A stretch of DNA of 64,000 nt from the NCBI GenBank assembly GCA_012845835.1, contig JABAKD010000016.1, positions 14,897,625 through 14,961,624 of the forward strand, written 5' to 3'. The stretch is from Undaria pinnatifida. Lineage: Eukaryota > Sar > Phaeophyceae > Laminariales > Alariaceae. Of the stretch, positions 10,281-61,942 are shown one piece after another (positions within the stretch are counted from its first letter, which is position 1; the number at the start of each line of letters is the position of its first letter). Under the pieces are notes generated by a model. It was given only the letters and a program-made list of their open reading frames with translations. It did no database searches and was not told the DNA's origin. The translations under genes and the position numbers were made by a program.

Positions 10281-10595
10281 TCAAGTCTCCGCGGTAAGCG
10301 TGTGCAACAGTTCCAAGGCATCTGCACATCCCACTACCCGATGGAGCCTCCTCTCGGCCCCCCTCCGCTGAGCTTCCATCTTTGATCCCCTGTTATTTGA
10401 CCCGTTGCACACGCCCGAAGAACCCTCCTGAGACCCGTCCTTCGACTGCCTCCCTCCGCCCCCCCACCCGGCGGCTTGGAGAGCATCGTCAACGTCCAGT
10501 TTGCAGCGATAGAAGCCGCGGTGTTTCACTGAGAATTTCGCGTAGACTTCTCTGAAGGCGTGAAGGCCCAGCCAGGTTACCTCGAAGCGGCGAAC
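10281..10595 (-). CDS. TERT: TERT exon 24: C terminus and stop
   Basis: Acceptor gagtactcag, preceded by a C-rich (CCCCAA-like) tract. It encodes [18 protein letters not shown], matching the 'WLgl.AF..vl' helix near the TERT C terminus, then a Gly/Ser/Arg-rich tail and [11 protein letters not shown] before the stop at 10281-10283. The tail beyond residue ~40 of the exon is not conserved. Confidence 0.88.
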   Translation of the reverse strand, partial: VRRFEVTWLGLHAFREVYAKFSVKHRGFYRCKLDVDDALQAAGWGGGGRQSKDGSQEGSSGVCNGSNNRGSKMEAQRRGAERRLHRVVGCADALELLHTLTAET

Positions 10596-13500
10596 CTGAG
10601 TACTCGCAATCGGGGGGGTTGGGGTTGGGGATGGGGTTGGGGTTGGGGTTGGGGTTTGGTGGGGGGGGGGGGGGGGGTATCCTCAATTGTTGCTCGCTTT
10701 CGCCATTTGGCAATTGACCACGCATCCCTTTCGAGACAGAGCACCGTTCCTACCCCTAACAGAAACACCTCCGACATTCGGGTGTTCACGAAGGATCACC
10801 GTGGGGATGGGCAGGGAGGGAAGTCAACGGGCGAAACAAGATTGACGCTTCTGTAAGGGGACTCGAAACAATTTGTTTGGTGCTCGTTTTCTCCCTCGCG
10901 TATTCGTCGCCACTCTCCTTGCCTATCGTTGCTAATGGGGCGGATTCAAAGTGTCATAAAAATATGATGGTAGCGGACGTGGCTACAGTTCCTTCCCTTT
11001 CTACAGCAGTTATTTACGCGCATTAACCCTTTCCAAACCGCAAACGTAACTCAAAAGTCAAATTTCAAGTAATTTGTCCCAAAAAAAGTGGGTCCTATAG
11101 TTCTAAAAAACAACAGGAGCGCTACTGTATTCGTCGCCCAAAGCCATTCTTGATATAGATATATGTATATATTTGTATGCGCGATCCGATGCACGCTTCC
11201 ATGGGCTATAGCATTAGTAAAACGATTACTTTAATTGAAAAATAAAACGGGTTTATAAATATATGCAGTTCAAGAGCAGCCCCGTCAATCAACCCCTCCC
11301 CCCCCTGTCGAGGCGTCGCTCTTCGTGCCCACCCTGTATAGATTGCAAGACACGCTCGCAGCTCTTGATAGTTTTCAACATTTAAGCCCCATCACTTACG
11401 GCGCCTATTACACGCCATCATCTCCGAAAAATGGCCCCGACCTCTTCGCGTATTTGCTAGGAGGGTTTTAGTCCACTGGGCTAGCCAAGTGCCCAACCCA
11501 GCTACAGCAAGCCTGACAACATGTAGCTCTACCATCGCATACTGCTGGTTGTCCTCTGGTCCACCATCGATGGGGATCTTCCATCGGAGACTGAGGAGTT
11601 CAATTACTTGACAAGGGATTATTTCAGCGGGATACGAATATGTTACTGCGGGACACACCTTGCAGACGCATTGCACGCCTGCAGATGTCCCAAACCCCCC
11701 TTTGCGCCTGTTGGATCGGCTCTGAATGAGGCTGTAGGCGTATGCCGTTGTCTCCAGGGCACCGTGTGACAGCAGGGACGTGTTGCCGGCCGGCCCGTGG
11801 GGTAGTCGGAGAGCTGAGGCTGCCGTTTTGGCGGCGCATACCAGCAGCATCTCGTACCTGTCATGAAAACGAACGCACGTACGTACGCGTTGCGGTGGGG
11901 GTGGATTCATATTGTTAAAATATTCCTAACAGGCGGGTTCCGGGTTCCCTCCTCAACCAACACACCAGGTACAATAATATAAAAAATGAAAACACACTCC
12001 AGCTGTGAGATCGAAGATTTCGTTGAAACTCATCCTTGCAAGCTGTGTGTGATACTCCGATCGCGCGTATTACGAGTTGTGTGTCCTCATTAAGGATATA
12101 GGTAGGCGACTCCCCGTACAACTACAGTGTAGCTATGAGGGTCCCATATTATACCGAATACCTGTTGGAATCACAGTCGTGGTTTAAAGTGCTATTTTCA
12201 GTTTACCTGACGACGCGCGGTACAATAAAGGTGCACCAACCATTGTTTTTTCTGAGGTTCCTCAATTTGGGAGCTTGACCCCTTTACAACTGCAAACCCG
12301 TTTTGCGGGACAAAATCACTTGGATTTATTATAGGGAGGGGTTCGGGGCTCTGAAGGGGTTGAGATCTCTCCCAAAAACTGATTTGGAGAAAAATATAAT
12401 TGCTACCGGATTAAAAACTCCATGGCCTGGGGTACACAACGAGATTTATGCAAAAAAAAAGTTCTATTTTCGACGATTTTGGGGTAAGGATCCCCATCAT
12501 TCATAAAACAAAATAGCCAAAAAAAGGTACACCTCTATTGCAGCGTGCGTCCTACAGTAGGACGCGTGCTATGTTCGCTACAGGGAGCACAATTTTCGGC
12601 TGAAACGTTTCCTGAATGGCGGAGCCCTCCTTAACCGAAAATCGTCAGAAAAAAAAACATTTTTGGTTATTTTTGCAAAAATGTTGTTTTGTTGTATGCC
12701 TAGGACATGGCCTTTGTTCTTCGGGAAGCGCTTTAATTTTCTCCACAGTCAGTTTTCGGCTGAGAGGGGCATGCATGCTCCTGAAGAGAGGCGCCCCAGA
12801 AAAAAATTGTTGCACCTCTACCGCAACATGCGTCCTTTTTTTCTCTTTAGGCTTATCCCATCAATTATCTTCGCACTTTTTTTTTTTCTCTTTCTCCGTC
12901 TCGAGACGCGTGCTACAATTGAGGCGCACCCACTTTTTTTCGGAGGTTCCTCGATTTGCAAGCTTAAGCCCTCTCCCAAAACCTGATTCGGAGAAGAAAA
13001 AAAAAAAAACTGCTACCGGATCGAAAATCCCATGGCCTGGGGTACACAATGATAATCGTGCAAAACAAAATGGCCTATTTCCGACGATTTTGGGTTATAA
13101 CCCCTTTACAATTGGAAACCCGTTTTTGGGGACAAAATTACTTGGATTTATTATAGGGAGGGGTTCGGGGGTTCTAAAGGGGTTAAGGAGCACCCCGTCA
13201 TTCAGAAAACCATTTTCGCCAAAAAAAGGTATACCTTTAATATTGTAGCACGCGTCCCGATACGTAACTCAGATACAGGGTCACTACGCAGGGTCTTGTC
13301 TTCTCCCCCCTCCTCACCACTGCTGTGGGCGACTTAGTTTTATCGCGAGAAGAGTTCAGCCCTTTCTTCCCTCGTCGACTCGCATCGAATTGCACCTACC
13401 CACGCTGCTAGGCTAGGCTATGGGATGGTTCATTCTGAAAAAAGTGAGCTGTCGCGTACTGTATGTACGGAGAGAGGTCCTTAGGCGAGGACAGCCCCAT

Positions 13501-16500
13501 AAAAAAAGGCACACCCCTATCCAACTATTAGTACCATGCGCCTGTTTTTCTCTCACATTGATTGCCTCATTGCGATATATGTTGTGACGAACAGTAGAAC
13601 CTACTGCTGCATCGCAAGATGACCGCAAACTTTCGGGAAGAGAAACGAAGCAACAGTGATCGATCTGCTAGCAAAAATCCCCCCACCGGTCAGCTCTTGG
13701 TGCACTATTCCGCTAGATTATTGGGTTTCCGCCGTACGTAGAGCAGTTTGACGCGAGTCGACCACGGAATAGAAAGCTGAACACCCTGTTCCCACGCATC
13801 GTAGCGTGTGTGGGAGGAGGTGGCGGGCGGGGGCGGGGGCAGGGCGGGGGAAGGGCGGGGGGGCGGCTACCTGCCATGTGGCCCCAGACCTTAGTTACGA
13901 AAACGAACGGAGATGTAGAAAAAATGAATAGAAAACAGATGGGATGGGGAAAAAAAGCAGCAGGAGAAAAAGCGCAAAAATACTAGATGGGGTGGGGAAA
14001 AAGAGCAGGACGCACTCGATCGAGCAAGAACATATCGGGTCGCATTTCGATTAAACTCACACGTTGACTAGGACTGTGTGCCTCGAGTTGATGCCCAGCT
14101 CGCCTTCGTCGAGCATGAGAGCATGACACTTGGGCGACAGGAAGCGCTTCATCTTGCCCATCAGGCACGCCCCCGGGTGTCCAGATTCCACCGTTACCGA
14201 TTCGGAAACTCCGGATTTGGAGTACCTAAGAGCACGGACGATTGATTGATACACGAAAAATATTACTCCGTTTCTACGTATACATCGGTACGAACTAGCG
14301 AGTGATGGATTCTAAGGATGAAAAAGGACCGCGAGTAAGCCCAAGTCAACGCAAGCAGTCGACCGGACCGGTGTTGGAACTGCTGACCCCAGCGAACGCC
14401 ATAAGGTAGCAGAAGGGGCCAGGTGGGGAAAGGGGAGGTGGAGGAACGAACGTCGTGCGAACTCAGCAAGTCGGAACATGCTACATGAACTGGACTGACG
14501 AAGGCGGCAAATGCTTTAAACGTTATTATAAGTAGTACATTCACAACATGTACCGGATACGTACATAAAAATCGGTTGCAAATACGTAGTATCAGCGCGC
14601 AAAATGACAGTGGGCCGAAATCGACCTTGGGGGAAAAAGTAATTCTCACCAACATCCGGGGGAATCCTATATCTCCAAACGAGTAACACACCTGTACAAA
14701 CGTGCGGCCGGAGTATCACGTAGCTTGCAAATATAAAAGTATCGACTATCGACCCTTTAATTGGTCGAACAAAAAGCTGTGACATCTTTGAATGTTTTTT
14801 TTTTTTACACACGTACACCGGGGACAGATTACAGCTGGGATTCGTAGTCTCGATCTGCGACTGTCCATCAACTGGCTACAAGTATCAACTGGCTACAAGT
14901 ATCAACTGGCTTCAAGTATCAACTGCCTACAAGTATCAACTGCCTACAAGTATCAACTGCCTACAAGTATCAACTGCCTACAAGTATCAACTGCCTACAA
15001 GTATCAACTGCCTACAAGTATCAACTGCCTACAAGTATCAACTGCCTACAAGTATCAACTACCTCTTAATATCAACTGCCTATACCTGGAATAATCGGCC
15101 ATAATCTCGCACGTGTTGGTGTTGAAGCGCAACCCGCACCACGGGAACATGCCTCCTTCGATCCGTCGAACCTGTGAACACGCACACCGAGCAAAGTCCG
15201 CCACAGCAGCAGTAACAAGCTGCACATTATTGGATCGTAAACATCATAATAATGATGACAAATGAGAATATCAATATAATAGTAACCATGACAAAAAAAA
15301 AATGTAATGATTCTGAAAACAACAAGCAGACAATACACAACAACAAAAAATCAAGACCAACCCGCACCAGGAAACATGCCTCCTGCCATCCGTCGACCAA
15401 AACACACTAAGCAAAAAGCTCCAGCAGGAAAAAAAAACACAAAACACATATGATACGAGAAAAGGATAAAACGATACCACCCTCCTAAACGTGCGAATGA
15501 AAAACGAAACTGAGGGTTGTGATCTCTGTACGAAAAAAAAAAAACTTCCGATGTATTTTACTTGATTTTAGTATACCCCCCCAAATGCCGTGCCAAAGAC
15601 TGCGGTGCCGCCATTTTTGTTTTCCCTGCACTCTCGAGTCCGCCGTCAAAACGCAAATAGCCAGCGCAGGCGTAATAGAAAACAACCCTAAAATCGACGC
15701 AGCAGTATCGGATCCCGTACGAGTTCGTACACTATTATTAGTATAGTTAAAGTCTCGCGCTGTGGTGGGGCATGAACCATTTTACTGCAGCAAGAACTGA
15801 TCTCACATAAATTCTAATCAGTCTTCCATCCAAATACGTGAATGAAATTGGATAAGGGTTCACATGACGATTTCTCCTCTTGTGCGTTCAGCACCATCAG
15901 GCAAGCGGACGGAAACATTATGCGTTCGGCCGCCTCCGTTGGCGAGGGATCACCTGCCTGTCTTAACCCCTTTAGAGCCCCAAAATCCCCCCTGTACTAA
16001 TTTCAAGTAAAATTGTCCCCAAAAAGGGTTTCCAGTTGTAAAGGCGTTAAGCTTAATTTTTCCCCATCCGTTCGAGGATGAAACTAGAAGAAATTTTGAA
16101 AAAAAAACAAAAAATCACCTGTTGGTTGAGTTCTCCGGAACTCCCCTTCAGTGTCATGTCGAAGTTCACTTTTGTCTGAGACAGAGGACAAGCATGCGCG
16201 GGAAGGGAGGGCAGCAAAAACAGCAGCTGAAATATAGTTCAGTTAGAAAACATAAATATGACCCGTCGCCGACGTCACACTCCTCGAATTGCGATTAATA
16301 CAGTGCGCGTTGAATCCCTTGTATTATTGTGCGCCCACACCAATCACTTAAACTAAGACTGGATTGGATGATGCCTCCTGCCCCAGCCTGTGGTCCTACC
16401 CACGATTCAATGCATTCCTTTTACTCTTCATTTTCCGCTGGACTGGGGTCGGTTGTCTCACACAAACTTTCCTTAACTCTGTTAACATCCCGCTTCGACG

Positions 16501-28500: not shown

Positions 28501-28771
28501 GAAAAAAAAATACAGTACAGACACACGATTAAGAAAATATGCTACATAAGAGACCGCGGTTTGCCCCCCCGCGACAGAGCGCCCCTTCACTATTACTCAT
28601 TTTGGGTCTTCCTTGATTATGTCTTGATTGTAGTAGTTGTAGTTGTAGGTGTAGTTGTAGGTGTAGTTGTAGGTGTAGTTGTAGTTGCAGTTGTAGTTGT
28701 AATTGTAATTGTAGTTGTAGTTGTAGTTGCAGTTGTAGTTGCAGTTGTTGTTGCTGTTATTGTAGTTGTAG

Positions 28772-28842
<71 letters not shown>

Positions 28843-52800: not shown

Positions 52801-55800
52801 CGCACCCACCACGGACGACGCAGTGTACCCTACACCCACCCACCGACCAAACCTTTACTACATACAGCCGTACAGCAGGTGCAGCAGGTGCAGCAGTACG
52901 TACTGTTGACGCAGGCGCGCTTGTCGCCTCGTGTCCATGGCTCAAGTGGCCAAAAAGCAATTCGAAAGTTTAATATAGTTGGAGTTCGGGAAAAAAAAAG
53001 CGGGCAGCGACGAAGAAAAAGCGGGGGGGGGGGGCAAGCGAGCCGTCCCCGGGAGGGCGATTTCCACGCTCCCCCCTCGCCGAGGTGGGGCACCGACGCC
53101 CGTTCTTTCGCCCCCACGTCGTAGTGCTGCTGTGCGGATGGGACGTGGCGGCACCGCGAGGCCGCCGGAGGCCGAGTGGAGTGGAGCTCGGGAGTCGCAG
53201 CTTTTTTTGGGGGGGGTGTTATAACCAAGATATTTTCAAAGATCCTAAAAAAAACACCACCACGACGTTAGCGTATTATATAATAAGGATTAGCACTTTT
53301 CGCGAAAACGTTTTCCGAATGACGGCCCCCGAATCCCTCCCCATACTAACTTCAAGTAAATTTGTCCCCAAAAAGGCTTTCCAGTCGCAAAGGCGTTTGA
53401 CCTATTAATACTAGTAATCAAATCGTCGGAACGTCAATTTCTAGTTTTCGCATTAAGAATATTTCGGTTTCACCTACCGTAGGCCATGGGCTTTGGTCAT
53501 CGGGTTGCACTTTCAGCTTTTACTCCAACGATTTTTTATCGCCTCAGTGGGGTATAGAGCCAGCTCCTCCAGCCAACAACTTTGCAGGGAAAAAACAACG
53601 GTTGGTGCACCTTCGTTTACCGTACAAGTAGTACGTGTCGAAGAACACATTCATTAGTCGAAGAACAAAAATCGTTAGCCTTGTTAGGGCTAACAGCGGG
53701 AATAAACAACTGGCGGATAAACCTGACGAGTGCACCACCCCGGGCAACTAGACTAATAGCGGACGACGACTTTACGGTGGTGCTGTCGTAACTCCAATGC
53801 CAAGTACCCGAAGGGCACGCGCACAGCTTGCACTGCCGTGTGCTGCATGCTCGGACCATGATAAGACCGCGCTGACACTTTGTTTTGTCGCCAGACGTGC
53901 GGGGCCTAAAGGGGGCGTGCTGTCTGTCCTGCGGCAGCAGCCGCCGGGTTTTACCCCTGAACAAGCATAAATCCAAAGTGTTTGAGCCACCGACGCAGAA
54001 TAAACTATCGAGGGGGGGGTGATACAGTACGGGACACCCAATAATGAGACACGGGGAAAAAAGAAAGGCAACGCTGATACATGAGAAAATAGAGTTGATT
54101 GAAACACATACAGTACGATTTTACAGGTGCCAACCCGGGATGCAAGCGCTTCGAATTTTTTCGGCATGCGTGAGACTGGTATGTATCTCTCGGGCAACAT
54201 CACTCGGACGTGTTCTGACGAAAGCCTCTATCATGACGGCGACAAACGCAAATTATTTTACGTGGGGGAAATAAAAAAGAGTTGTTGTACTGATCTTAGT
54301 GTAGAACGCACAGCTTTTCTCAAAATAGAAACCCAACCTTGCTCAGTACTTATGTAAATAGGTGCCCTGAACTACTACATATGTACTGTCTGCCTGCCCA
54401 TCGTAGCTGATCCTCGTCATCCCCGAGCACCCTAGTAGGACAACGAAGCTTCAAGCGTATGCAGGCGGCGCCACTCGAACTCCGCACCCGGCTCCCTCGG
54501 ATGCAGGTTGTCGAACACCATTACACGAGATGACATCGTGGTATATTTAAACCATAAAAATGAAAATAAATACGCCCGTACGGCTGTGAGGTCGAGAATT
54601 TCGTCGAAACCCATCTTTGCAAGCTGTGTGTGATACTCCGATCGCGCGTGTTACGGGGTGGTGTGCACGTCCTCACGAACGGGACATAGGTCGGCGACTC
54701 CCCATCTAGGTCTAGTTATCAAAGCTGTTAACACCTAGTGCCATAATATTGTTGCAACAACCCATACGGCAGCACAAGTGAGTGCAAAAAGATTGGTTGC
54801 GAGCGGAGGCGCGTTGGGATAGGGGGGGGCGCTTTTTGGCCATGCATTTTCTGGCTGATGGTGCCGGATAAGTCAGGAACTACCCAACACGAAGCGTATG
54901 TGCAATTTCTAACTTCTGTTGGATTGGAAAAACAAAAGAAAAAAAAATAATTGAAACCGACGACTGTCATAGTCCAAGGCCTACCAACCAACACACGGAA
55001 AACATATCTTGAAAACAAAAATGGCAATGGCATAATAGGAAAAACGTATTTTTAACCATTTTTTTGGTTAACTTTTCGTGGGTCAGGTTGGCCTTGAATT
55101 GTGACGTTTGGCGGTTTCAATACTATTCTTGAGTGTTTTTCTAGTCAAGTCCTGCCCAATCAAAGTTGGTACCTGGTACCAGGTACATCGCAAACACCCT
55201 AACGTGGTTAAAATCGCAACTAAGTTTTACCATATTATTCGTTAAAAGTGGTTTAAGGCCATCCGGTTTAACCCCTTTAGAGCCCCAAAATCCCTCCCTA
55301 TACTAAATTCAAGTGAATTTGTAAAAAGAAAAGGACTTCCAGTTGTACAGGCGTTAAGACCACCTGGTTTAAGACCGTACGGTTTGAGACCATCTGGTTT
55401 AAGACCATACCTGGTACCTGGTACTATTTAAGACTTTTCGGCGGACAAGACCAGGTGAATGGGGTCGTTCGTCCCAATAAAACACACTACTTGGAATTGA
55501 CACGGGATACTTTTCGCAGTATACAGTAAAACACACAAAAAAAAAAAAAATGGAGATAAGACCCACTGAAATGGTCTGTCGCGAGGTTGCTCTTATAGCG
55601 GATATGCAAGTGTGGTATATGCACCTAGAGCAAGGGAGTGCTTGTCTTTTTCAGACCCAGCCCAATCAGTGACTCCAGCGACGAGACTCAGAAAAGCTAA
55701 TAGCCCTTGCGGAGCTTGAGAGGGAAAAAATGACCACAAATATTGACGATTACAGCACCTTCCACACGAGGCTAAGCGGGCTGCCACCTTAGGATGGGGT

Positions 55801-58800
55801 TCATGTATGTGCGGAGTACTGTACACTAGTAGCAATACCTCGTAGTCGCAATAGCAGCAAACAAATCAACCCAAGGGGCTGTACGACACAAATTCAAGGA
55901 GTTGTGCGACACAATCGACCCAAGGAGTTGTACGAAATTATCAATCCAAGGAATTGCACGACACACTTGAGCAACGGCGTGGTGGCATGGTGCGTGATGC
56001 CGCTCATTTTGCTGCGCTCTCACACAAAAATAACTGGTAAAGCCGCGCGTCTCGATTGTTTCGATCGCCTTTTTTGGGGTTTACAAGTCTTACCTCCTAG
56101 AATTGGTTCAACCGGTTCAACCGGTCCAACCGGTCCAACCGCCTCGGCATCGAGCGGTGCAAGTACGGGACCCTCTCCGACGATGGCCGGACCGGTGGCC
56201 GGACCGGCCATACAGTCGCCGTCTTCCTCCTGTCAAGAGGAACAGAAAAGGCATTGCGGTCGTACCGTACTGTATAAAGGAAACCTAACAAGGAACAGAA
56301 ACATATCGACCCAGGCTGGGGTTCTTATTTGGGAGAGTACACGCTCTACTCTAACTTCAGTATAACGGCTAAGTAATACACGAAGTACATAGACCAAGCA
56401 ATCTTGGGTGTAACCCATTTTTTTGGACTTTCAGAGGGGAAAAAAATGACGACAAGTGTTGACGATTACAGCATCTCCCCCACGAGGCAAAGCGGGCTGC
56501 CACCCCAGGAGGGGGTTCAATTACATTCCGGTCTACAGCACAATCATTCCAGGCAAACGTTTTTTTATACATGATGCCGCTCATTCTTACCACGCGCTCA
56601 CACAAAAACCGTTGATAAGACCGCGCGTGTCGATTGTTTCGATCAAGTTCATGGGGTCCCAAAAGAGTGTAATAGCTCACCGTGCGAAGCTCCCCGGGAG
56701 CGTCTGTGGGCCAATCGTCCCGCACCGGTCGCCAGTGCTGAGCATTGTTGTGGGACGGGGCTCCAGCCCCGGCGCCATTCCCTCGGCCGACACCCCAGCA
56801 CGCCCTATGGCCCGGCACACCGCCCGCCGTAGGTGATTGCGATTGAGGTTGAGACTGCGACTGCGGTTCCGAGCAAGGGTCTCTTAAGGTAGAAAAACTG
56901 TTTATGCTCCCTTCCTCGTCGCCACTGCTCCCGACGTCCTCCTCCCCGCTCTTGCCATTCACCCCCCCCGCTTGTGGCCACGCCGATGCTGCCTTGGCGC
57001 CCTCCGTTTCCGGATCACGCAGTGTAGAAGCATCCGACAGGCTGCCATCCGGGGACTTCGGGGGGAGCTGCTCCGCGTCGGCTGCGCCTGTGCATAGCCC
57101 CCGCGCAGTCTGGCCCGGCGCCTTCTTTTTTAAGGCGGATTGCGGTAGAGGGCAGTGCGCTTCCAACAACCTGCCGAAATTGCAGCCGTGCGCCCTCTCC
57201 AGCAGCTGTTCCATCAGCGGCACCACGCGGCGCAATCGTTTCGGTAGCTTGCGCCCCCCCTTCACCGCCTTCCCGGTTACCATCGCGTCTGCTCCCGACC
57301 GCTGGACCGCGGAGCCGGTGCTGTTGTTGTTGTTCTTGTGCGCTCCTTCGTTTCTGTTTCGCTGACTTCCAGCGCCATCTAGTCGGCAAAACACGTCGAA
57401 AACCAGGCGGTGGGCGGCTTTGGAGGCAGCTGGGTCTTTGTGACCACTGCTGCCGCTGCCCCCTTCGGCGTTTCGGGTATTCCCGAGCTCGCGGGGGGCA
57501 ATAATGGCCGGGTTGCGCTGGCCGATAGGGGGTGGCATCTGGCCGCAGGGGCTAAGCGGATGCCCACGCGGGAAGCCAGCCTTCCTGGAAAGCGAGGTAA
57601 TATATAGGGCGGACGTTTTCTTCCCAAAATGGGTCATTTTGATGTTGCCGCGAATAGTAAGAGTCCGAGTATTGCTACACTATTGTACAGCATAGTCTGT
57701 CGACGCGTGCTGCACGCCACTACCATATGTATCCCACAACCCTTGTTTTCATTTCCTTGAATTTTTATTCCACACAATTTTCAAGTACTTTGTCCTAAAA
57801 AACGTGGGTTCATTCAGTACCAAAGGACCTCAACTCATAACACCCTTGGGACCCCCAAAAATTCTATCAAAGGTTTTCAAACAATCCGGATGTGCGGCCT
57901 TCTTGATCGTCTAGTGAGGGCACGCGGCAAGACGCTTAGCATCATGACCACACTACGCGCGTGTGCTGTACAACTCCTGGGACTGTGGTTTGGAATGTAA
58001 ACTTAATACCCCTTGAGCCAACAGCTCATCTTGTTTCGTGCGATCGATGTTGTACTCGTCGATTTATTTCGTCAACTTATTGAGCTCTGAAAACCCCCAA
58101 AAAGATAGTTTGCATCTCAACCCCTTTGTCTCCGCAAAACATATTCCGCAGATACAGATCCAGCACACCATCTCAAAACGGCAGAGACGGGATGAATGTA
58201 CTGTTGATGATCTATATCATCTATACGATCTAGATCCTGATCTATCCGAGGAAGAAATCCACGCTAAGACCAAGCAGTTTTTCCACAAAATGTTGGGTGC
58301 GTGTCCAAAGGGGTTACGTCAACCCTCTCGGATCTTCAGTTATCTTGATTATGGTATAGCGAAAAATTGACGAACAAAAGTGACCATTTCCGCATCGGTC
58401 ACACGAAGAAACCCGGGCAGCTAGACTAGCTCACGACGCTTTTTACTGGCAAACTCCACTGCAAGTACCTATAGGGCACGCGCATAGCCTGCACTATCGT
58501 GTGCTGCACGCTCGCACCATGATAAGGACGCCTTTATACTTTGTTTTGTCGCTGTATCATACTTAGTATAATACATGGACCCCAAAAAGGTTCAGGGTCA
58601 TGACCGAAGACGACCTCTGTGGTACCGACCTGACAAAGGTGCTGGAGTAGAAGATGCGCCGGCGGGACAGCAGCGTCATGGGTCGCGGATTGGGCCGCCT
58701 CTTCTCCCCCGCTTTCCCGGCCCGTCGTTGCCCCGAACTAGCGCCTCCACTCTCCACAGCGGGTGCGGCGGATGAAGCCTGCGCATAAGGGTTCTCCAAA

Positions 58801-61800
58801 CGAGCTTCCCCGCAAAACGCAGGTGGTGGCACACGACCCCGTTGGGCGCCGTTCGGTGCTACGCTATTGGGTTCTGGTCGTTTGCCGCTACAGCGGTTGC
58901 CGGGCTTGTCGGCGTTTGGAGCCCCCGATCGGGCAGTCGTAGCCATTTTCGATGGGGCATTCCCGGCATCAGGCGTTGCAGCGACGGAGGCGGATAGGGC
59001 GCTTGAAGTGAGACCTAGGTGGCGGCATAGCTCCGATACTGGACGCCCTGCAAGCTGCGGGTGAACGCCGGCAACCGGGGGAGTAAAAAAAAGAGACTTC
59101 GTAAAAGCGGAGATAATCCAGCACGATAGGCCTCATTTTTCAGCTTCCAATGAACAAGGCTATCGTATATACGTCGAAGTAACCTGGAAACAACAACCCT
59201 GAGTTTAATAGTACAACGAACAAGACTATCTCATATATACAGTAGAGCGTCGAAATTTCTCCAATTTTCAGGTTACAACGAACACATATACGTCGAACTA
59301 ATACGTTTCAGTTGCCAGACTACAATGAACGAGACTAGCAGAATAACATTTGTTGGAGTAATGTTGCTATCTGTATACTGACATCGGGTGGGCTCTTAAC
59401 ATTTGAAAGTCGCCGGTCACCCGCATTTATAGTACCTTAGCCTTGGTAGGCACGCAGGCACTGCAGATGTCGCAGTCAAAACGGTGGTCATCCAAAATAA
59501 CGTGAAACTATGTGCTAGAAGAAGTGCCACAATCCCGCTTGTGCGGGGCCGCGCAGATTAATTTGATTGAAACCCTTGAAGACATTTGAGGTCCAGGCTA
59601 GGCCGCCAGGCGTACCCTAGATTGTGTTTTAGTTAGACGCACACCATTACCACCAAGGTAGCACAGTCAGCATTGACATATAGTTGCTTGAAAGTTGACT
59701 GATAGCTCAGTTGGTCACAGGTGTATTATCAACACAGGTTGCTCCCGGACAAGAGCAAGAGAAACCGGCTGCTAGCTCAGTGGTCAAGTACCAGGTATCC
59801 CCCACATAGGTGGCTCGCAGATAAGAACTAGAGAAGCTGGCCGCTATAGCTCAATGGTTGCGTCTTACTCCTCGCACACATCGATCCCAGACAAGAGCAA
59901 GAGTAAGCCTCCTTGCCTGCATGTAGCAGCGATTGGGAAGGCGTTGCAGCACGGCGTGCTGGCGCAGGAGCAAAAACATCAAGTCATCTCCAATCCTGGC
60001 CAACAGCAGCTCCCACGTTTCTGAGCGGATGACGTTGACCGTGGTGTTGGGAAAAGTGCACGCAACTCCCTGAACACTCAAGAGCTCGCTCTTCGCTTGA
60101 GGACCCGCCACCCGACAGCCGAGGGAGAGGACGTTTCGGCGGGGATCGTAGCCTTGACCGCCAGAGTATCCGCTGACATTGCCTCCCTACATGTGGGGAA
60201 CGTGTAGCAGAAAAAACTGAGCAATGCGTCATGAGTTCATGGCAGAGTGGAGTAAGACAACAGTGCAGCATTTCCGGGCACCAGGAAGGCGTGAACAATC
60301 GGACACTCTGCCGGCGACAATGCCAGAAGGGAGAAGGGTCAAAATTCATAAATTTCACTTGCTACCGCTATGACTATTCCAAGTTTAGCGAGTTGCCAGC
60401 GACACGTAAAACATAGGAGCCCCTTTTGAGCTGTGTTAGACATCTGCGCCGCCCGACCCAAAATCTCCAACGGGGGGGGAGGGGGGTGTACTCATTTCAT
60501 GCATAGCCTCTTCAGACCATAGACCCTCGCATCCCAACAATGTCGGGACGGAGCACGTCGGGTTTTCCCTGACCAGGCAGACATCGCGTTCGCCAAGCGC
60601 GAAGCGCGGTGAGGTGTTCGGCGAGTCGCATGAAGGGTGAGCTGTATCCTTCCAAGAACCGCTCGTAAGACGGACTTCGGCACCTTGTGCGCACTTTTTG
60701 GGTATGGATGACAGCCTCGAACGGACTCATTTGGAAGGGGGGGGTTATGCCTTCCACCAGCGCGAGCCCCCATGTATATCGGTAGTGTATAGCGAGAGCT
60801 ACCCTGGCTTCAATAGCTCAATGCTACTAAATACTATTCCAAGAATGCCAGCAAACACATACCAGACGTACAATATACCATACCAGGTACAGCTGCTGCA
60901 GTACGAACCACAGGTAGAGCTGTGTAATTATGCAACCACGGCAGCAGCAGCAATAGCAACAGCAACAGCATCATCAGCAGCGCTTATCACGACCAGCGAG
61001 GGAGCAATTTTCGAATCCACGGCTCCAATAATTCCACCGCCATTAGCACTTCACATTCTATGATGGAAACGAAACTAGGGCAGCCTGCATACGAACAAAC
61101 AAACAAAAAACAGGCTTCCCAAACCTGTCCGGTGCTCGGCGATCGTAAGAGAGACCTGACGACGCGGTCCAAGAGGTCTGCCATTGATGAGCTGTGCTGG
61201 AGCGATGCATTGCGGGGCAGTGGCGCGCGATTCTCGTCCGGCACCAGTGTTCCGGGAGAGGAGCAGAAGGCGACCAGAGTCTCCTCCAGCATCTGGTTAC
61301 GGCGAGGCACGTGCGACGTCCACAAATCACATTGATGTCAAGCATGCAGCATGCCACTTACAAAACAGAAAATAAAAACACCTTGTGATAAGCCGCGAAC
61401 CGCGAACTGCGTTTCGATGTTTTTATTTTGGTCGAATATATAATTTCATGTTTCAAAATTCAAAGTTCAACATTCAAAATCAGGTACCAGGTTCCTGATA
61501 CCTGATACTGAATTGTGTCTGCCGCGTGTGCAGCGTACAGCATGTTGCTCTTGCCGGCTCGAGCCAACCACGAGCCCTTGCCATGCTCAGTGCCGCAATC
61601 GCTCCACCCACCCACCCACCCACCCACCCACCCACCGACTAATACCACCGACCCACTCACCTGCTTGAACTCTGGCTGGTCATTTTTGCGGGTAAGGTAG
61701 TCGGCAGGTCCGCCGAATCTACTAATAGCAGCTGCCGACGACGAGGCTGGTGATGCCAACGCGATGTCGCGCAGCCACGCCTCTAGGTAGGGGCCCAAAG

Positions 61801-61942
61801 TAGTCGCATTGGGGTACACGAGCTTCAGCATCCACCGGCCATCCAGGCCTTCCCCCTTGCCAGCCTTGCCAGCCTTGCCAGCCTTGCCATGCGGCTGACC
61901 CCGCGCCTTCGCTGGCGACCCTACGCTGGGGGGACCCACGTT
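10281..61942 (-). CDS. TERT: Telomerase reverse transcriptase, 24 exons seen, 5' end not certain
   Basis: Catalytic subunit of telomerase: it copies telomerase RNA template onto chromosome ends in the nucleus. Exons in transcript order: 61661-61942, 61125-61292, 59917-60186, 58630-59054, 56681-57584, 56094-56229, 52198-52349, 50088-50195, 48882-49442, 47300-47385, 44022-44215, 41867-42027, 33700-33900, 32425-33039, 30496-30591, 28124-28251, 25780-25876, 19603-19715, 17788-18418, 16119-16175, 15086-15171, 14061-14225, 11659-11857, 10281-10595. They sum to 6,150 nt with every junction phase matching. Domains seen: TEN (1-~260), CP (~490-525), QFP (~765-815), T (~1002-1031), motifs 1/2, A, B', C, D, E, thumb. 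Usual TERTs are about 1,000-1,300 residues; this one is about 2,050 because of linker insertions. Catalytic Asp residues are intact, so it is likely functional. Confidence 0.96.
10607..10678 (+). repeat. GGGGTT-type G-rich tract
   Basis: About six units of ggggtt with small variants, followed by a G16-type run. It lies in the last TERT intron, where the transcript reads CCCCAA and serves as the pyrimidine-rich tract of the exon 24 acceptor. It resembles ciliate telomere repeats but is short and interstitial. Confidence 0.85.
11659..11857 (-). CDS. TERT: TERT exon 23: thumb, middle
   Basis: Acceptor tcatgacag, donor AAG|GTGTGT. It encodes [19 protein letters not shown] and [20 protein letters not shown], equivalent to 'YKILLLQAYRFHACVLQLP' and the 'a.y.y..l..r' helix. 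The frame stays open beyond the donor to 11392, but the phase of exon 24 supports the donor used here. Confidence 0.93.
12275..12363 (-). mobile_element. TTAA-type MITE, ~88 bp
   Basis: Starts near ttgacccctttacaactg and ends ctgaaggggttga. A diverged member of the family whose clear copies start TTAACSCCTTTA and end TAAAGGSGTTAA. Confidence 0.7.
13097..13186 (-). mobile_element. TTAA-type MITE, ~88 bp
   Basis: Reads from acccctttacaattggaaac through tagggaggggttcggggg to ctaaaggggttaa. Same orientation as the 12.3-kb copy. Confidence 0.75.
14061..14225 (-). CDS. TERT: TERT exon 22: thumb, first part
   Basis: Acceptor gtgctcttag, donor GT|GTGAGT. It encodes [15 protein letters not shown] and [20 protein letters not shown], matching 'R..l..kLf.vl.lKchsLFLD' of TERT thumbs, then RHTVLVNV. 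Phases 2 in and 2 out. Confidence 0.95.
14868..15078 (+). repeat. 17-bp tandem repeat, about 12 units
   Basis: Unit caactgcctacaagtat. The first three units read caactggct and the later ones are nearly identical, ending just before exon 21. A minisatellite in TERT intron 21; it has no spacers, so it is not a CRISPR. Confidence 0.95.
15086..15171 (-). CDS. TERT: TERT exon 21: motif E (primer grip)
   Basis: Acceptor cgtgttcacag, donor AG|GTATAG. It encodes [20 protein letters not shown] and CEIMADYSR. The FPWCGL...DYS pattern is specific to TERT. A decayed copy of this exon lies 0.2 kb away at 15358-15430. Confidence 0.97.
15352..15430 (-). pseudogene. Ghost copy of the TERT motif-E exon
   Basis: On the plus strand ccaacccgcaccaggaaaca, tgcctcctgccatccgtcga and the following acacactaagcaaaaagctc parallel exon 21 and its acceptor-side intron (15128-15210). 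The copy lacks the acceptor AG and is frame-broken relative to FPWCGL, so it is probably an unused intronic duplicate. Confidence 0.75.
15963..16050 (+). mobile_element. TTAA-type MITE, 88 bp, nearly canonical
   Basis: Begins ttaacccctttagagcccc and ends cagttgtaaaggcgttaa: perfect TTAA at both ends with imperfect inverted repeats starting CCCCTTTA / CGCCTTTA. It lies within 70 bp of exon 20. Confidence 0.85.
16119..16175 (-). CDS. TERT: TERT exon 20: motif D
   Basis: Acceptor ctgtctcag, donor CAG|GTGATT. A 19-codon micro-exon, [19 protein letters not shown], completing the 'K(T).vNF' motif D. Phase 0 at both ends. Confidence 0.93.
16559..17579. mobile_element. pogo/Tc1-mariner-like element with TA target site
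   Basis: The left end cagtcgtccccgctttaaag and the right end (reverse complement) cagtcgaccccgctttaaag are inverted repeats of about 25 bp, each flanked by TA (16557-16558, 17580-17581). The CAGTCGACCCCG-type end is typical of pogo/Tigger-like elements. Further ccgctataaagacac / ccgcgttaaagacac units lie just inside each end. No transposase is readable, so it is non-autonomous. Confidence 0.85.
17788..18418 (-). CDS. TERT: TERT exon 19: 164-residue insert, then motif C
   Basis: The acceptor cacctcaag follows a very long C-rich tract; donor AAG|GTATAG. After a Gly/Ser/Asp/Arg-rich region without stops it encodes [18 protein letters not shown] (motif C, the DD pair is catalytic), [13 protein letters not shown] and WGFSVHEAK (start of motif D). 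The phase-2 end of exon 18 fits this long version and not a short exon starting near 17925. Confidence 0.9.
18419..19602. other. TERT intron 18
   Basis: C-rich acceptor tract in the transcript (plus-strand 18421-18470 ggggtggggaggggtgg), a G17 run at 18606-18620, and a dispersed repeat at 18940-19145 (ccttcgaaggcatgtttcgg) also found at 20690-21035 and 48105-48340. Confidence 0.6.
19603..19715 (-). CDS. TERT: TERT exon 18: motif B'
   Basis: Acceptor acggcgtcag, donor CAG|GTACCG. It encodes [18 protein letters not shown] then [12 protein letters not shown], the diagnostic motif B'. Phase 0 in, 2 out. Confidence 0.96.
20415..20501 (-). mobile_element. TTAA-type MITE
   Basis: ttaacgccgtcgcaactgg to tcgaaagggttaa, with TTAA at both ends. 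Confidence 0.75.
21340..21441 (+). mobile_element. TTAA-type MITE
   Basis: Starts ttaacccctttagagccccc and ends ccagtcgtaaaggcgttc. An internal 13-bp tandem (ccctatactaatt) makes it longer than its relatives. Confidence 0.75.
21991..22403 (+). repeat. 205-bp direct duplication
   Basis: Two nearly identical copies starting gcatactctcgagcgttag at 21991 and 22196. Part of the unit (ttggtttcttgctcggc, tttctgctcgtt) reappears near 62.57 kb, so the unit itself belongs to a dispersed family. Confidence 0.9.
23622..23710 (+). repeat. tRNA-derived SINE-like unit
   Basis: Box A-like tggtctagtgg and box B-like gagttcgacac lie 46 bp apart, as in tRNA-derived SINE heads. The acceptor stem does not pair, so this is not a functional tRNA gene. 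Confidence 0.5.
25545..25712 (-). repeat. Inverted copy of 34497-34672
   Basis: About 170 bp closely matching the reverse complement of 34497-34672, including cttcgggtcccat, gcccaacgctagctggcg and ccatccgccggagga. A partial third copy is at 31462-31560. Confidence 0.8.
25780..25876 (-). CDS. TERT: TERT exon 17: block before motif B'
   Basis: Donor CAG|GTAAGA. The acceptor is one of two adjacent AGs (25877 or 25874 side), both in phase. It encodes [17 protein letters not shown] and GRDAYFRQ, the 'l..H...N.v..g..yyrQ' block leading directly into TVGIPQGS. Confidence 0.9.
26190..26520 (+). repeat. Tandem array of MITE-derived 65-75-bp units
   Basis: The core of the TTAA MITE (taaatccaagtagtttgtcc ... 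gcagttctaaaggggtt) repeats about five times with intervening accattttactactgcaa. Array formation from a MITE core. Confidence 0.7.
26530..27115 (+). repeat. ATGATGATGTTA microsatellite, ~590 bp
   Basis: Imperfect 9- and 12-bp units of tgatgatgtta throughout. No coding or structural feature beyond simple repeat. Confidence 0.97.
27190..27503 (+). mobile_element. LTR fragment with adjacent primer-binding site (fossil)
   Basis: An old LTR-retroelement relic. The segment ending tttgttctaca is followed at once by tggcgtcgtcggcagga, a TGG-starting primer-binding-type site. A diverged solo copy is at about 39055-39335. The LTR start is approximate. Confidence 0.6.
28124..28251 (-). CDS. TERT: TERT exon 16: IFD-like segment
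   Basis: Acceptor ttttgtgacag, donor AG|GTCGGA (weak). It encodes [16 protein letters not shown] then [20 protein letters not shown], the part of the fingers insertion before B' ('..tIfvDqv.y...'). 42 codons plus two bases. Confidence 0.88.
28622..28845 (+). repeat. GTT/GTA trinucleotide array
   Basis: Near-perfect (gtt)n with gta and gca variants. It generates long spurious poly-Val, poly-Asn and poly-Thr frames. Confidence 0.97.
29299..29555 (+). mobile_element. GC-rich MITE, CCAGGGCTTTTCACGG family
   Basis: Starts ccagggcttttcacggatcg and ends gcgacccgtgaaaaccccta, with internal gacccggcccgacccatgag blocks shared with other copies. Confidence 0.75.
29980..30330 (+). repeat. ~60-bp minisatellite, about six units
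   Basis: Units of cagcagcaataaggtacaga followed by aatgctgaatacaaaaccgg or aataccaaatataattcgac. The unit looks compound (two alternating half units). Confidence 0.85.
30496..30591 (-). CDS. TERT: TERT exon 15: after motif A
   Basis: Acceptor gacacaacag, donor AGG|GTGCAG. It encodes [20 protein letters not shown] and FKAMGR, matching the 'L..vi..ii....Y.vr.y' segment of TERT. 32 codons, phase 0 at both ends. Confidence 0.92.
30592..32424. other. TERT intron 14
   Basis: A tandem of tatagttgtatttgatatgc (30655-30900), a TTAA MITE (31375-31462), the partial copy of the 25.5/34.5-kb repeat (31462-31560) and a two-unit ~75-bp repeat (31600-31750). Confidence 0.65.
31375..31462 (-). mobile_element. 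TTAA-type MITE, 88 bp
   Basis: ttaacgcctttagaaccgg to gggctctaaaggggttaa, with TTAA at both ends. One of the cleanest copies. Confidence 0.85.
32425..33039 (-). CDS. TERT: TERT exon 14: pre-A block, 146-residue insert, motif A
   Basis: Acceptor tatccccag, donor CAG|GTAGGG. It opens [20 protein letters not shown] then [10 protein letters not shown] ('svlGlDDI...F') and closes [18 protein letters not shown] (motif A; D of VDI is the first catalytic Asp). Between them lies a Ser/Gly/Arg-rich insert with a peptide repeat ([13 protein letters not shown] / [12 protein letters not shown]). 205 codons, phase 0 at both ends. Confidence 0.95.
33700..33900 (-). CDS. TERT: TERT exon 13: Glu/Gly-rich insert and NMQLSNAFH block
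   Basis: It ends [11 protein letters not shown] with donor CAT|GTACGT, running into VLKHEY of exon 14 exactly as 'vN.qL..afhvLkhE' in other TERTs. The first ~45 residues are a poly-Glu/poly-Gly stretch. The acceptor at 33900 is the in-phase choice; a better pyrimidine tract before 33950 would be out of phase, so the 5' edge is uncertain. Confidence 0.75.
34497..34672 (+). repeat. Dispersed repeat, inverted partner of 25545-25712
   Basis: cactgataagaacagctta to ccatccgccggaggat, followed by poly-A. The 3' poly-A next to a fixed terminal sequence suggests a retroposed SINE-like element. Confidence 0.6.
36305..36925 (+). mobile_element. Pif1/Helitron-type helicase C-terminal fragment
   Basis: The open frame reads [36 protein letters not shown], then [35 protein letters not shown] and [13 protein letters not shown], the final motifs (V, VI region) of Pif1-family helicases as carried by Helitrons. 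It ends in a stop at 36923. The Walker A part and any Rep domain are missing, so this is a truncated transposon piece lying antisense in a TERT intron. Confidence 0.8.
37245..37530 (+). mobile_element. LINE reverse-transcriptase fragment
   Basis: Successive frames show [16 protein letters not shown], then [10 protein letters not shown] and [20 protein letters not shown], the A-motif region of non-LTR reverse transcriptases ('[16 protein letters not shown]'). The fragment needs at least two frame changes and stops at 37537, so it is dead. No 3' tail visible. Confidence 0.8.
37975..38192 (+). mobile_element. LTR-like 3' end with primer-binding-type site (fossil)
   Basis: The segment ending gactctttcaca is followed by attggcgtcgtcggcaggac, the same TGGCGTCGTCGG site seen at 27504 and 41293. 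Start of the LTR not resolved. Confidence 0.45.
38300..38605 (+). repeat. 24-bp minisatellite, about 12 units
   Basis: Units of ggaaagacacaaacgaatgg/tatt with variants aaagatatt and aaagataat. It yields a spurious repetitive frame on both strands. Confidence 0.95.
39055..39335 (+). mobile_element. Solo LTR related to 27.2-27.5 kb (fossil)
   Basis: Shares gggtttcac.tgcctttgaaggcatgtgcg, ggattagcaacgcgtt, aatagtagtagagagatctg and gtctgtgtcctgtaacagcc with the 27-kb copy. No primer-binding site follows, so it is a solo relic. Confidence 0.65.
41202..41582 (+). mobile_element. TRIM (terminal-repeat retrotransposon in miniature), fossil
   Basis: Direct repeats of about 85-89 bp (41202-41290 and 41499-41582), ending ccttaaca. 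Just inside the left repeat is tggcgtcgtcggtaggac (primer-binding type, 41293) and just before the right repeat a purine tract (ggggggaagag). TATA flanks both sides as a likely target duplication. The 208-bp interior is non-coding. It looks structurally whole. Confidence 0.8.
41867..42027 (-). CDS. TERT: TERT exon 12: RT motifs 1 and 2
   Basis: Acceptor gccgtcgcag (chosen by phase), donor CCG|GTGAGA. It encodes [20 protein letters not shown] (motifs 1/2) and [17 protein letters not shown]. 2 + 53 codons. The 5' boundary is less certain than the motif itself. Confidence 0.9.
42101..42266. mobile_element. Two TTAA MITEs back to back in opposite orientation
   Basis: Copy 1 runs ttaacgcctttacaactgg to ggggctcttaa; copy 2 starts with the same TTAA at 42178 (ttaacccctttagagccccc) and ends gtaaaggggtta. 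Together they form a large near-palindrome. Confidence 0.85.
42459..42800. repeat. Fold-back repeat element
   Basis: cacacacagcttgcaaagat, gagtttcgacgaaat and gatctcacagctggagt in forward orientation (42590-42680), with part of the unit inverted at 42730-42780 and an internal duplicate at 42675-42720. Related copies at 3.5-4.0, 12.0 and 54.6 kb. Confidence 0.7.
44022..44215 (-). CDS. TERT: TERT exon 11: between T motif and motif 1
   Basis: Acceptor gttatgcag, donor G|GTAAGC. It encodes [20 protein letters not shown] then LRWSDGH, matching the helical stretch after the T motif, followed by a Ser/Pro/His-rich linker. 1 + 64 codons + 1, phases agree with both neighbours. Confidence 0.88.
44785..45050 (+). 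repeat. Dispersed repeat, partner of 50283-50700
   Basis: Both copies share gagctg/tgagagtcgg..agga..tca at the start, a C-rich middle (gccccc/tccccc), aatgcgtcccac or aacgcatcccat, ggatagtcggcaccttcg, and tccgactaataactagttg..gacttaa. Non-coding. Confidence 0.65.
45600..45690 (+). repeat. tRNA-Ser-like sequence, probably SINE head
   Basis: Perfect box B (ggttcgagtcc) and a Ser-type long variable arm (attgtgacttcacgcgcagg), with gga in the anticodon position. The D-arm (gcccgagtcgataagg) is recognisable, but the acceptor stem does not pair. A pseudogene or SINE head rather than a working tRNA. Confidence 0.5.
46782..47041 (+). mobile_element. GC-rich MITE, diverged copy
   Basis: Starts gcaagggtcttcacgggttg and ends gatctgtgaaaaaccctgg, with tgacccgacccgacttgacc inside. 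Confidence 0.7.
47060..47280 (+). repeat. ATC/ACC trinucleotide array
   Basis: catcatcatc with caatcgtcatcagcac interruptions. Source of spurious His-rich and Met/Asp-rich frames. It lies directly downstream of exon 10 in the transcript. Confidence 0.95.
47300..47385 (-). CDS. TERT: TERT exon 10: T motif
   Basis: Acceptor ctcgttgcag, donor AG|GTGACG. It encodes [10 protein letters not shown] and [13 protein letters not shown], a clear telomerase T motif (FYVTE...YRK.VW). 28 codons plus two bases, phase 0 in, 2 out. Confidence 0.97.
47386..48881. other. TERT intron 9
   Basis: Dispersed repeats at 48105-48340 (ccttcgaaggcatgtttcg family) and 48590-48790 (gatgcgagtcgaagaggga family), and a G13 run at 48836-48849 within 40 bp of the exon 9 donor. 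Confidence 0.6.
48882..49442 (-). CDS. TERT: TERT exon 9: linker with likely nuclear localisation signal, pre-T helix
   Basis: Acceptor ttttctgcgcag, donor TTG|GTAAGT. It starts [15 protein letters not shown], continues with about 130 residues of Gly/Arg/Ser-rich linker holding [10 protein letters not shown] and KARDKRKRG (basic, NLS-like), and ends [20 protein letters not shown] then VIVPL, the helix before the T motif. 187 codons, phase 0 at both ends. Confidence 0.92.
50088..50195 (-). CDS. TERT: TERT exon 8: QFP motif, second part
   Basis: Acceptor ccttcacgcag, donor GAG|GTGAGC. It encodes [13 protein letters not shown] and [17 protein letters not shown], the 'P..LWGS..N' and 'F..L.rhE..SL' blocks that contact telomerase RNA. 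36 codons, phase 0 at both ends. Confidence 0.95.
50196..52197. other. TERT intron 7
   Basis: Repeat 50283-50700 (partner 44785-45050) with a C17-type run, a GC-rich MITE with clean ends (51452-51703) and a gcgagtcgacgaggga-type remnant (51930-52110). Confidence 0.6.
51452..51703 (+). mobile_element. GC-rich MITE, best-preserved copy, 252 bp
   Basis: Inverted ends ccagggcttttcacgggtcg and (reverse complement of the right end) ccagggcttttcacgggtca match over 19 bases. The interior is gacccgacccg repeats. Non-coding. Confidence 0.85.
52198..52349 (-). CDS. TERT: TERT exon 7: QFP motif, first part
   Basis: Acceptor gcttgcgcag, donor CGA|GTGAGC. It ends [17 protein letters not shown], which runs into IFPTSLWGS of the next exon and matches '[22 protein letters not shown]' of other TERTs. 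It begins with about 25 Ala/Gly-rich residues. A decayed copy of its 5' part lies at 53928-53998. Confidence 0.9.
53928..53998 (-). pseudogene. Ghost copy of the 5' part of TERT exon 7
   Basis: Plus-strand gcagcagccgccgggtttta, cccctgaacaagcataaatc, caaagtgtttgagccaccga parallel the exon 7 start and its upstream intron (52328-52390: gctgcagccgccgggttta, tccctgcgcaagcacaaaac, ggcggttggacaccga). The conserved part covers the acceptor and about 20 exon bases. The exon's conserved QFP part is not present, so it is unlikely to be used. Confidence 0.65.
55268..55357 (+). mobile_element. TTAA-type MITE, 90 bp
   Basis: ttaacccctttagagcccc to agttgtacaggcgttaa, with TTAA at both ends. Confidence 0.85.
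56094..56229 (-). CDS. TERT: TERT exon 6: Gly-Pro-Val linker
   Basis: Acceptor ctcttgacag and donor GGAG|GTAAGA are both strong. It encodes [14 protein letters not shown] and a [12 protein letters not shown] repeat. No conserved motif, but the phases (0 in, 1 out) fit exons 5 and 7 exactly. The repeat is read from tandem ccggttcaa/ccggtccaa units on the plus strand. Confidence 0.75.
56681..57584 (-). CDS. TERT: TERT exon 5: CP motif and long acidic/Ser-Gln linker
   Basis: Acceptor cgctttccag, donor ACG|GTGAGC. It encodes [24 protein letters not shown], then [20 protein letters not shown] and [14 protein letters not shown] (CP motif). A linker follows with poly-Asn, acidic stretches ([14 protein letters not shown]) and a [10 protein letters not shown] tract. 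The phrase STLRDP appears twice in the linker. 301 codons plus one base. Confidence 0.92.
57585..58629. other. TERT intron 4
   Basis: MITE fragment near 57760-57830, a gatctatatcatctatacg-type repeat (58150-58260) and a repeat at 58430-58600 (ggcacgcgcatagcctgcac) also seen at 53770-53895 and 62090-62260. Confidence 0.6.
58630..59054 (-). CDS. TERT: TERT exon 4: end of TEN and first linker
   Basis: Acceptor ttcacccgcag, donor AG|GTCGGT (weak). It starts [15 protein letters not shown] (the 'vxGxPLxxL' block), then runs through about 95 residues of Ala/Gly/Pro/Arg-rich linker and ends [12 protein letters not shown], equivalent to the 'KHFLYSS' block. The phase-2 end joins exon 5. Confidence 0.9.
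59055..59916. other. TERT intron 3, GC-AG type
   Basis: Begins GCAAGG and ends cccgcag in the transcript, one of the minor GC-AG class of U2 introns. It carries tandem tRNA-like units (59695-59910) next to the donor and AT-rich repeats of aacgaacaagactatcgtat type (59150-59340). Confidence 0.85.
59695..59910 (+). repeat. Three tandem tRNA-like units, ~71 bp each
   Basis: Units start gactgatagctcagttggtc, ggctgctagctcagtggtca and ggccgctatagctcaatggt: each is a tRNA-like 5' end with a near-perfect box A. Each ends near ccgga/cgcaga/ccagac plus aagagcaagag. The third has box B-like catcgatccc. Tandem array of tRNA-derived sequence, not functional tRNAs. Confidence 0.65.
59917..60186 (-). CDS. 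TERT: TERT exon 3: TEN domain core
   Basis: Acceptor ccacatgtag; donor is CAG|GCAAGG, a GC-AG intron. It encodes [32 protein letters not shown] and [17 protein letters not shown], the 'NVLxxG', 'PNTVT' and 'W..LL.RvGDD' blocks of TERT. 90 codons, phase 0 at both ends. Confidence 0.93.
60187..61124. other. TERT intron 2
   Basis: Contains the coding-like repeat (60505-60730) described separately, a G-run (60473-60489) and a gcagcagcagcaatagcaac tract (60942-60980). No host exon recognised. Confidence 0.6.
60505..60730 (-). repeat. Coding-like repeat, partner of 880-1015
   Basis: Minus-strand open frame [66 protein letters not shown]. The central part recurs at 0.9-1.0 kb, and the 3' flank (gcatagcc / ggtgtactcat) near 18.53 kb. 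Probably part of a transposon protein; family unknown. Confidence 0.5.
61125..61292 (-). CDS. TERT: TERT exon 2: TEN domain
   Basis: Acceptor gccgtaaccag, donor CAG|GTTTGG. It encodes [18 protein letters not shown] and [18 protein letters not shown], matching the 'LVxxCLVCVP' and 'ELVARVLQRL' segments of other TERT TEN domains. 56 codons, phase 0 at both ends. Confidence 0.85.
61600..61637 (+). repeat. CACC tandem repeat
   Basis: (caccca)n run 20 bp inside intron 1 from the exon 1 donor. Confidence 0.9.
61661..61942 (-). CDS. TERT: TERT exon 1 seen: N terminus, GKAG repeats
   Basis: Acceptor ctcttcgaacag, donor CAG|GTGAGT. It encodes a [12 protein letters not shown] tract then [20 protein letters not shown], typical of the extreme TERT N terminus, and ends [16 protein letters not shown]. 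The Met at 61831 could be the translation start; otherwise an earlier exon supplies it. 94 codons, phase 0 at both ends. Confidence 0.8.

Follow-up and report, generated by a model that had tools for sequence, protein, structure and literature searches.

Telomerase is the enzyme that rebuilds chromosome ends. As reviewed, plant TERTs carry the same 11 canonical motifs as other TERTs, part of the TEN region is missing in some TERTs, and exon counts are 12 in plants, 16 in mammals, 14–17 in other vertebrates and 1–19 in ciliates, with 19 in Tetrahymena (PMC7658794). The human TERT gene is described as spanning 42 kb; it has 16 exons and encodes 1132 residues (PMC8150890). Enlarged TERTs are described in Plasmodium falciparum (~280 kDa) and Toxoplasma gondii (PMC5855555, PMC12457308). 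For the Saccharina genome, the mean intron is reported as 1,057 bp, and no word in the main text of that report begins with 'telomer' (PMC4421812). A literature search, with most subscription papers outside its coverage, found no paper on a TERT gene from brown algae or any other stramenopile.

A 64-kb window of the Undaria pinnatifida genome (the window being the whole stretch of DNA analysed) probably contains one TERT gene, apparently intact and of about 24 exons, on the minus strand and with the full domain order, which is enlarged by inserts to about 1,720 to 2,030 residues. The gene lies between about 61.8 kb and 10.28 kb of the window; the span of 52 kb, which an earlier note on this DNA had given, is ordinary beside the human gene. 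The six motif strings named in the same note as TERT hallmarks were all recovered by a string search of the minus strand and follow TERT order as the coordinate falls: the T motif FYVTE (47359-47373), an 11-residue string of motifs 1/2 (41930-41962), motif A VDIKHCYD (32437-32460), motif B' GIPQGS (19692-19709), motif C QVDDF (17890-17904), and motif E FPWCGL (15130-15147). The RT motif names (1, 2, A, B', C, D, E) are those to which we take the strings to correspond. The catalytic aspartates are kept in VDIKHCYD and QVDDF, and GIPQGS, the T motif and motif E are intact. In the spliced model these are joined by TEN-like exons (61831 to 58630), the CP motif (in 56681-57584), the QFP region (52349 to 50076), motif D (16119-16175), and, from 14225 to 10281, a C-terminal extension.

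The gene model was built with a splice-aware dynamic programme that uses codon log-odds and generic splice matrices, keeps phase, and gives a bonus to anchor strings chosen by eye in the motif exons; exons 1 and 14 were then corrected by inspection. An earlier 24-exon model of 2,083 residues, starting from 61942 (M1), was used for the Pfam and PDB searches. In the final model (M2), 24 exons of 57-904 nt alternate with 23 introns of 368-6,288 nt (22 GT-AG and one GC-AG), and 2,030 codons with no internal stop lead from an ATG at 61831 to a stop at 10281. Leaving out the unsupported exon 40262-40368 would lengthen the longest intron to ~7.9 kb. The start replaces an acceptor proposed earlier at 61942, and an upstream exon may exist. 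M2 agrees with the 24 exons and 2,050 codons of the earlier note, and the shortest exon is again 57 nt; the longest exon is 904 rather than 630 nt, and the longest intron is 6,288 nt or ~7.9 kb rather than 8 kb. The match of all 23 junction phases stated in that note is also true of the model, but phase matches are not evidence by themselves, since model building guarantees (here enforces) them.

Several candidates from early splice runs were not kept. A Trp/Gly-repeat extension of exon 1 was dropped in favour of a strong donor at 61660, and an exon 14 end at 33652 was replaced by the donor at 33699. Exons at 46899-46985, 45808-45864, 55967-56018, 53808-53956, 51561-51616, and 50463-50522 (or 50377-50522) were dropped as lacking homology, and the extra exons of low-penalty runs (37 and 50 exons at penalty 4; 23 and 27 at penalty 8) were not adopted. 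In eight runs without anchors, 13 to 19 of the 24 M2 exons were recovered exactly per run, which is weak support, given that this gene supplied the training data for the codon scores and that runs of this kind had guided the choice of M2.

TERT becomes clear only after exon joining, as single open frames gave mere scraps of homology: among eight tested unspliced, one matched PF12009 (6.6e-5, 48720-49487), one matched RVT_1 (0.021, 17782-18534), and six matched neither. In M1, the Pfam TRBD model (Telomerase_RBD, PF12009) matches in two stretches at 4.7e-30 (104.9 bits; cut-off 25), TERT_C (PF21399) matches at 1.6e-13 (51.5 bits; cut-off 27), and RVT_1 matches at 2.4e-8. The TEN_TERT model, which the earlier note had proposed together with PF12009 for searching the joined translation, reaches 1.8e-4 and 22.2 bits, below its cut-off of 25. 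A PDB search with M1 returned 14 distinct sequences (E ≤ 0.01), of which 13 are TERTs and one is a designed protein (0.0079); the best match is human TERT (7qxa; 4.9e-41). Human TERT aligns with M1 in nine blocks, eight in TERT order and one, of low complexity (-5.9 bits), out of order. Two of the nine, the T block (2.6e-6) and the block from motif C to the CTE (3.1e-23), are significant alone; the CP, QFP, TEN, motif 3, A, and B' blocks are weak alone and lend support through their order. Judged from these sequence matches, TERT identity can be regarded as secure. With the 162-residue motif C-CTE query, a viral contig set yielded no pattern match, and a genome contig set yielded 19 pattern-matching stretches, none of which encodes a relative.

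By M1 exon boundaries, ten of the 23 junctions lie inside well-scoring TERT alignments (two within residues 976-1041, three within 1485-1603, four within 1768-1967, and one more within 1882-2005), and three lie inside weak alignments (one within 184-247 and two within 769-835). For the remaining ten the basis is splice signals and phase, with likeness by eye as an addition in three. Seven aligned exons (7, 11, 16, 17, 20, 22, and 23) were proposed without an anchor; exon 7 lies in a weak alignment.

The predicted exons, all on the minus strand, begin with a TEN-like region. Exon 1 (61661-61831) contains the possible ATG at 61831 and a 16-residue string leading to PEFKQ; its likeness to a TEN start was judged by eye, and it ends at a strong donor (CAG/GTGAGT). 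Exon 2 (61125-61292) was assigned by eye and by the splice model. Exon 3 (59917-60186), with an 18-residue TEN-like string, falls in the TEN_TERT match (184-247 of M1) and in a weak PDB block; its donor at 59917 (CAG/GCAAGG) belongs to the only GC-AG intron of the model, and a GT donor may exist nearby. Exon 4 (58630-59054) comprises the TEN-like end, a linker, and a 10-residue string; the junction of exons 3 and 4 is within the weak TEN alignment, and the linker comes from the splice model. Exon 5 (56681-57584) carries the CP motif (a 20-residue string, with PDB TRBD blocks) between long flanks. Exon 6 (56094-56229) is a putative linker exon that shows no homology and comes from the splice model only. 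The QFP region starts in exon 7 (52198-52349; a 12-residue string, in the weak PDB block 769-835 of M1) and continues in the anchored exon 8 (50076-50195; SLWGSKRN, with a PDB block at an i-Evalue of 0.28 against human TERT). Exon 9 (48882-49442) has TSDLDWM at its start, an insert of ~147 residues, and then a 23-residue T-region string; each end of the exon is covered by Pfam TRBD and PDB alignments. The T motif is in exon 10 (47300-47385), within the TRBD match 976-1041 of M1 and a PDB alignment, and exon 11 (44022-44215), the segment from T to motif 1 with a 15-residue string, has its first residues within the T alignment.

The RT region begins with exon 12 (41867-42027), identified by the motif 1 and 2 string and the splice model. 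Exon 13 (40262-40368) is putative, likewise shows no homology, and comes from the splice model only. Exon 14 (33700-33973) ends in an 11-residue string recognized by eye and has a donor CAT/GTACGT; its 5' part is unsupported. Exon 15 (32425-33039) contains motif 3 (a 13-residue string), an insert of ~152 residues, and then motif A, with weak PDB blocks at both ends and the RVT_1 alignment starting from the motif A end. The A-B' segment, a putative IFD, is present in exons 16 (28124-28251) and 17 (25780-25876), within the RVT_1 alignment 1485-1603 of M1. Exon 18 (19603-19715) carries motif B', with RVT_1 and PDB matches. Exon 19 (17788-18376) carries motif C, in the PDB block 1768-1967 of M1, preceded by a doubtful B'-C insert. 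Motifs D (exon 20, 16119-16175; TKVNFDM) and E (exon 21, 15086-15171; motif string) are within the same block. The C-terminal extension occupies exons 22 (14061-14225) and 23 (11659-11857), both with TERT_C and PDB matches, and exon 24 (10281-10595), which includes a low-complexity tail and the stop; the TERT_C match (1882-2005) crosses the junction of exons 23 and 24.

The length of the protein depends on how much of the sequence between conserved blocks is translated. The 2,030 codons of M2 fall to ~1,720 without the stretches that lack flanking homology (exons 6 and 13, and the 5' parts of exons 14 and 19), and, by arithmetic, to ~1,270 if the inserts of exons 5, 9, and 15 are also removed. 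A TERT of normal or near-normal length, ~1,270 residues once all four large inserts are taken out together with the unsupported exons, is considered unlikely, with evidence on both sides; what look like inserts would then be short introns, or frames that stay open by chance where the DNA is GC-rich. Open frames of more than 120 codons are common (81 in the window). In exons 9 and 15, however, the insert has TERT sequence on either side in one open frame, and the chance of its staying open, from its own first-order composition and excluding a further frame factor of about one third, is 0.021 for exon 9 and 0.05 for exon 15, which argues against a chance frame.

Synonymous codon use was scored in 11 stretches. 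The assumed frame was the best of three in four of them (both flanks of the CP motif, the tail of the last exon, and the start of exon 12) and was outscored by a shifted frame in seven, including the inserts of exons 9, 15, and 19, a result in favour of the normal-length protein. Among 433 null windows, 132 scored as high as the exon 9 insert, 41 as high as the exon 15 insert, 315 as high as the B'-C insert of exon 19, and only 3 and 18 as high as the exon 5 flanks before and after CP, these fractions being rough because null windows had up to 60 codons and inserts up to 156. Codon use is exon-like in the CP flanks, which speaks against their removal, and at best moderately exon-like in the inserts; GC3 is 0.54 in the B'-C stretch versus 0.71 in conserved blocks.

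Splitting of the long exons was followed in four splice runs, two without codon scores and two using scores derived solely from conserved blocks. Exon 19 was split in two of the four (both with codon scores) and exon 9 in one (one of the two with codon scores), as a normal-length protein would predict. Exons 5 and 15 were split in none, contrary to that prediction, and exon 15 has no in-frame internal intron from its first to its second half above the site threshold. A single donor is listed for the B' exon; it leaves phase 2, and downstream of 18055 no acceptor of that phase is above threshold, so that ~45 B'-C residues, or an unseen exon, would remain. The B'-C insert looks the least coding-like of the inserts. 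By a residue set of our own choosing, 82-86% of residues in the four large inserts are disorder-prone, compared with 64% in a conserved 200-residue stretch, and on this compositional basis the inserts are probably disordered loops. A length of 1,720 to 2,030 residues is the most likely range. The 'functional, unusually large TERT' of the earlier note stands as to identity, and large size is likely, but the exact figure is uncertain and 'functional' is inferred from the open frame, the intact catalytic aspartates, and the usable splice sites.

An active gene would be the simplest reading of the sequence. A decayed copy (pseudogene), with the active copy elsewhere, is very improbable: one donor is GC rather than GT, and the survey covered the 64-kb window, but the conserved blocks are free of stops and frameshifts, the introns are kept, and the motifs are intact. 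Another reverse transcriptase (a Penelope-like or LINE element), to which the RVT_1 domain common to RTs and the transposon-like fragments in an intron might point, can be dismissed almost entirely in view of the TERT-specific TRBD and TERT_C domains and of PDB matches that are TERTs but for the designed protein.

Downstream of the TERT gene, pieces of a carboxy-terminal processing protease lie on the minus strand at ~1474-4341 (Peptidase_S41, 5.6e-9; PDZ_6, 3.4e-5, below cut-off). Three joined pieces have photosystem II D1 protease as their best PDB match (1.3e-12), ahead of bacterial relatives; a neighbour of this photosynthesis type suggests, by its sequence, a photosynthetic eukaryote. Within a TERT intron, on the opposite (plus) strand, a Pif1-helicase-like fragment (36287-36925; Pif1_2B_dom, 2.7e-6) is perhaps a Helitron remnant, and an open frame at 37160-37537, also on the plus strand, resembles by eye a retroelement RT fragment (YDSVDRELL) and has no family match in Pfam or NCBIfam. 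Tandem repeats at 14867-15082 (17-bp units), 25709-25778 (6/13-bp), and 47063-47280 (3-bp) abut three TERT donors, the distance from the array end to the first base of the following intron being 3, 1, and 19 bases for exons 21, 17, and 10, respectively. Intronic minisatellites are located at 26551-27115 (11-bp unit, 51 copies) and 38290-38613 (24-bp unit, 13.5 copies). A search of the whole window against Rfam gave no RNA family match at gathering scores.

As for the working of the intact, enlarged TERT, a transcript spliced from ~24 exons would encode a catalytic subunit of telomerase that comprises TEN-like, TRBD (CP, QFP, T), RT (1, 2, 3, A, B', C, D, E), and C-terminal regions. If it works like the TERTs studied so far, the TRBD would bind telomerase RNA, and the motif A and C aspartates would serve in copying the RNA template onto chromosome ends. 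The low-complexity inserts between conserved blocks, probably as disordered loops, would enlarge the protein. More tentatively, a TERT of ~2,000 residues may have its RT core itself broken up by low-complexity inserts of ~150 residues that are translated, one immediately ahead of motif A and perhaps another between B' and C, with a shortened A-B' segment; this would be an enlargement outside apicomplexans, and the core would tolerate or use large disordered loops near its active site. If the model is right, the locus offers a full-domain, exon-rich TERT and natural insertion sites tolerated by the RT core. In intron-rich genomes, annotation alone is no basis for concluding that TERT is absent.

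Compared with human TERT (7qxa), the encoded protein keeps the same order in eight of the nine blocks, with one alignment spanning motif C to the CTE, and the gene has ~24 exons instead of 16, a number that would also exceed the counts reviewed for plants, vertebrates, and ciliates (PMC7658794). The residues between blocks in M1 and human TERT, respectively, number 176 and 135 for TEN-CP, 219 and 26 for CP-QFP, 144 and 6 for QFP-T, 242 and 58 for T-motif 3, 153 and 7 for motif 3-A, and 162 and 5 for B'-C; only the A-B' gap (25780-32460), with 65 and 96, is shorter among the seven. The T region also aligns with Tetrahymena TERT (6d6v; 2.8e-14). Like the Plasmodium and Toxoplasma TERTs, as far as these can be compared by description, the predicted protein keeps the TERT motifs and is probably enlarged by inserts, which are rich in G, A, P, S, and R, whereas those described in Plasmodium are asparagine-rich. 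With its photosynthesis-type neighbour gene, the locus gives no sign of an apicomplexan host. The locus is thus a further example of a known gene rather than a new kind of system, and possibly represents a second lineage of enlarged TERTs.
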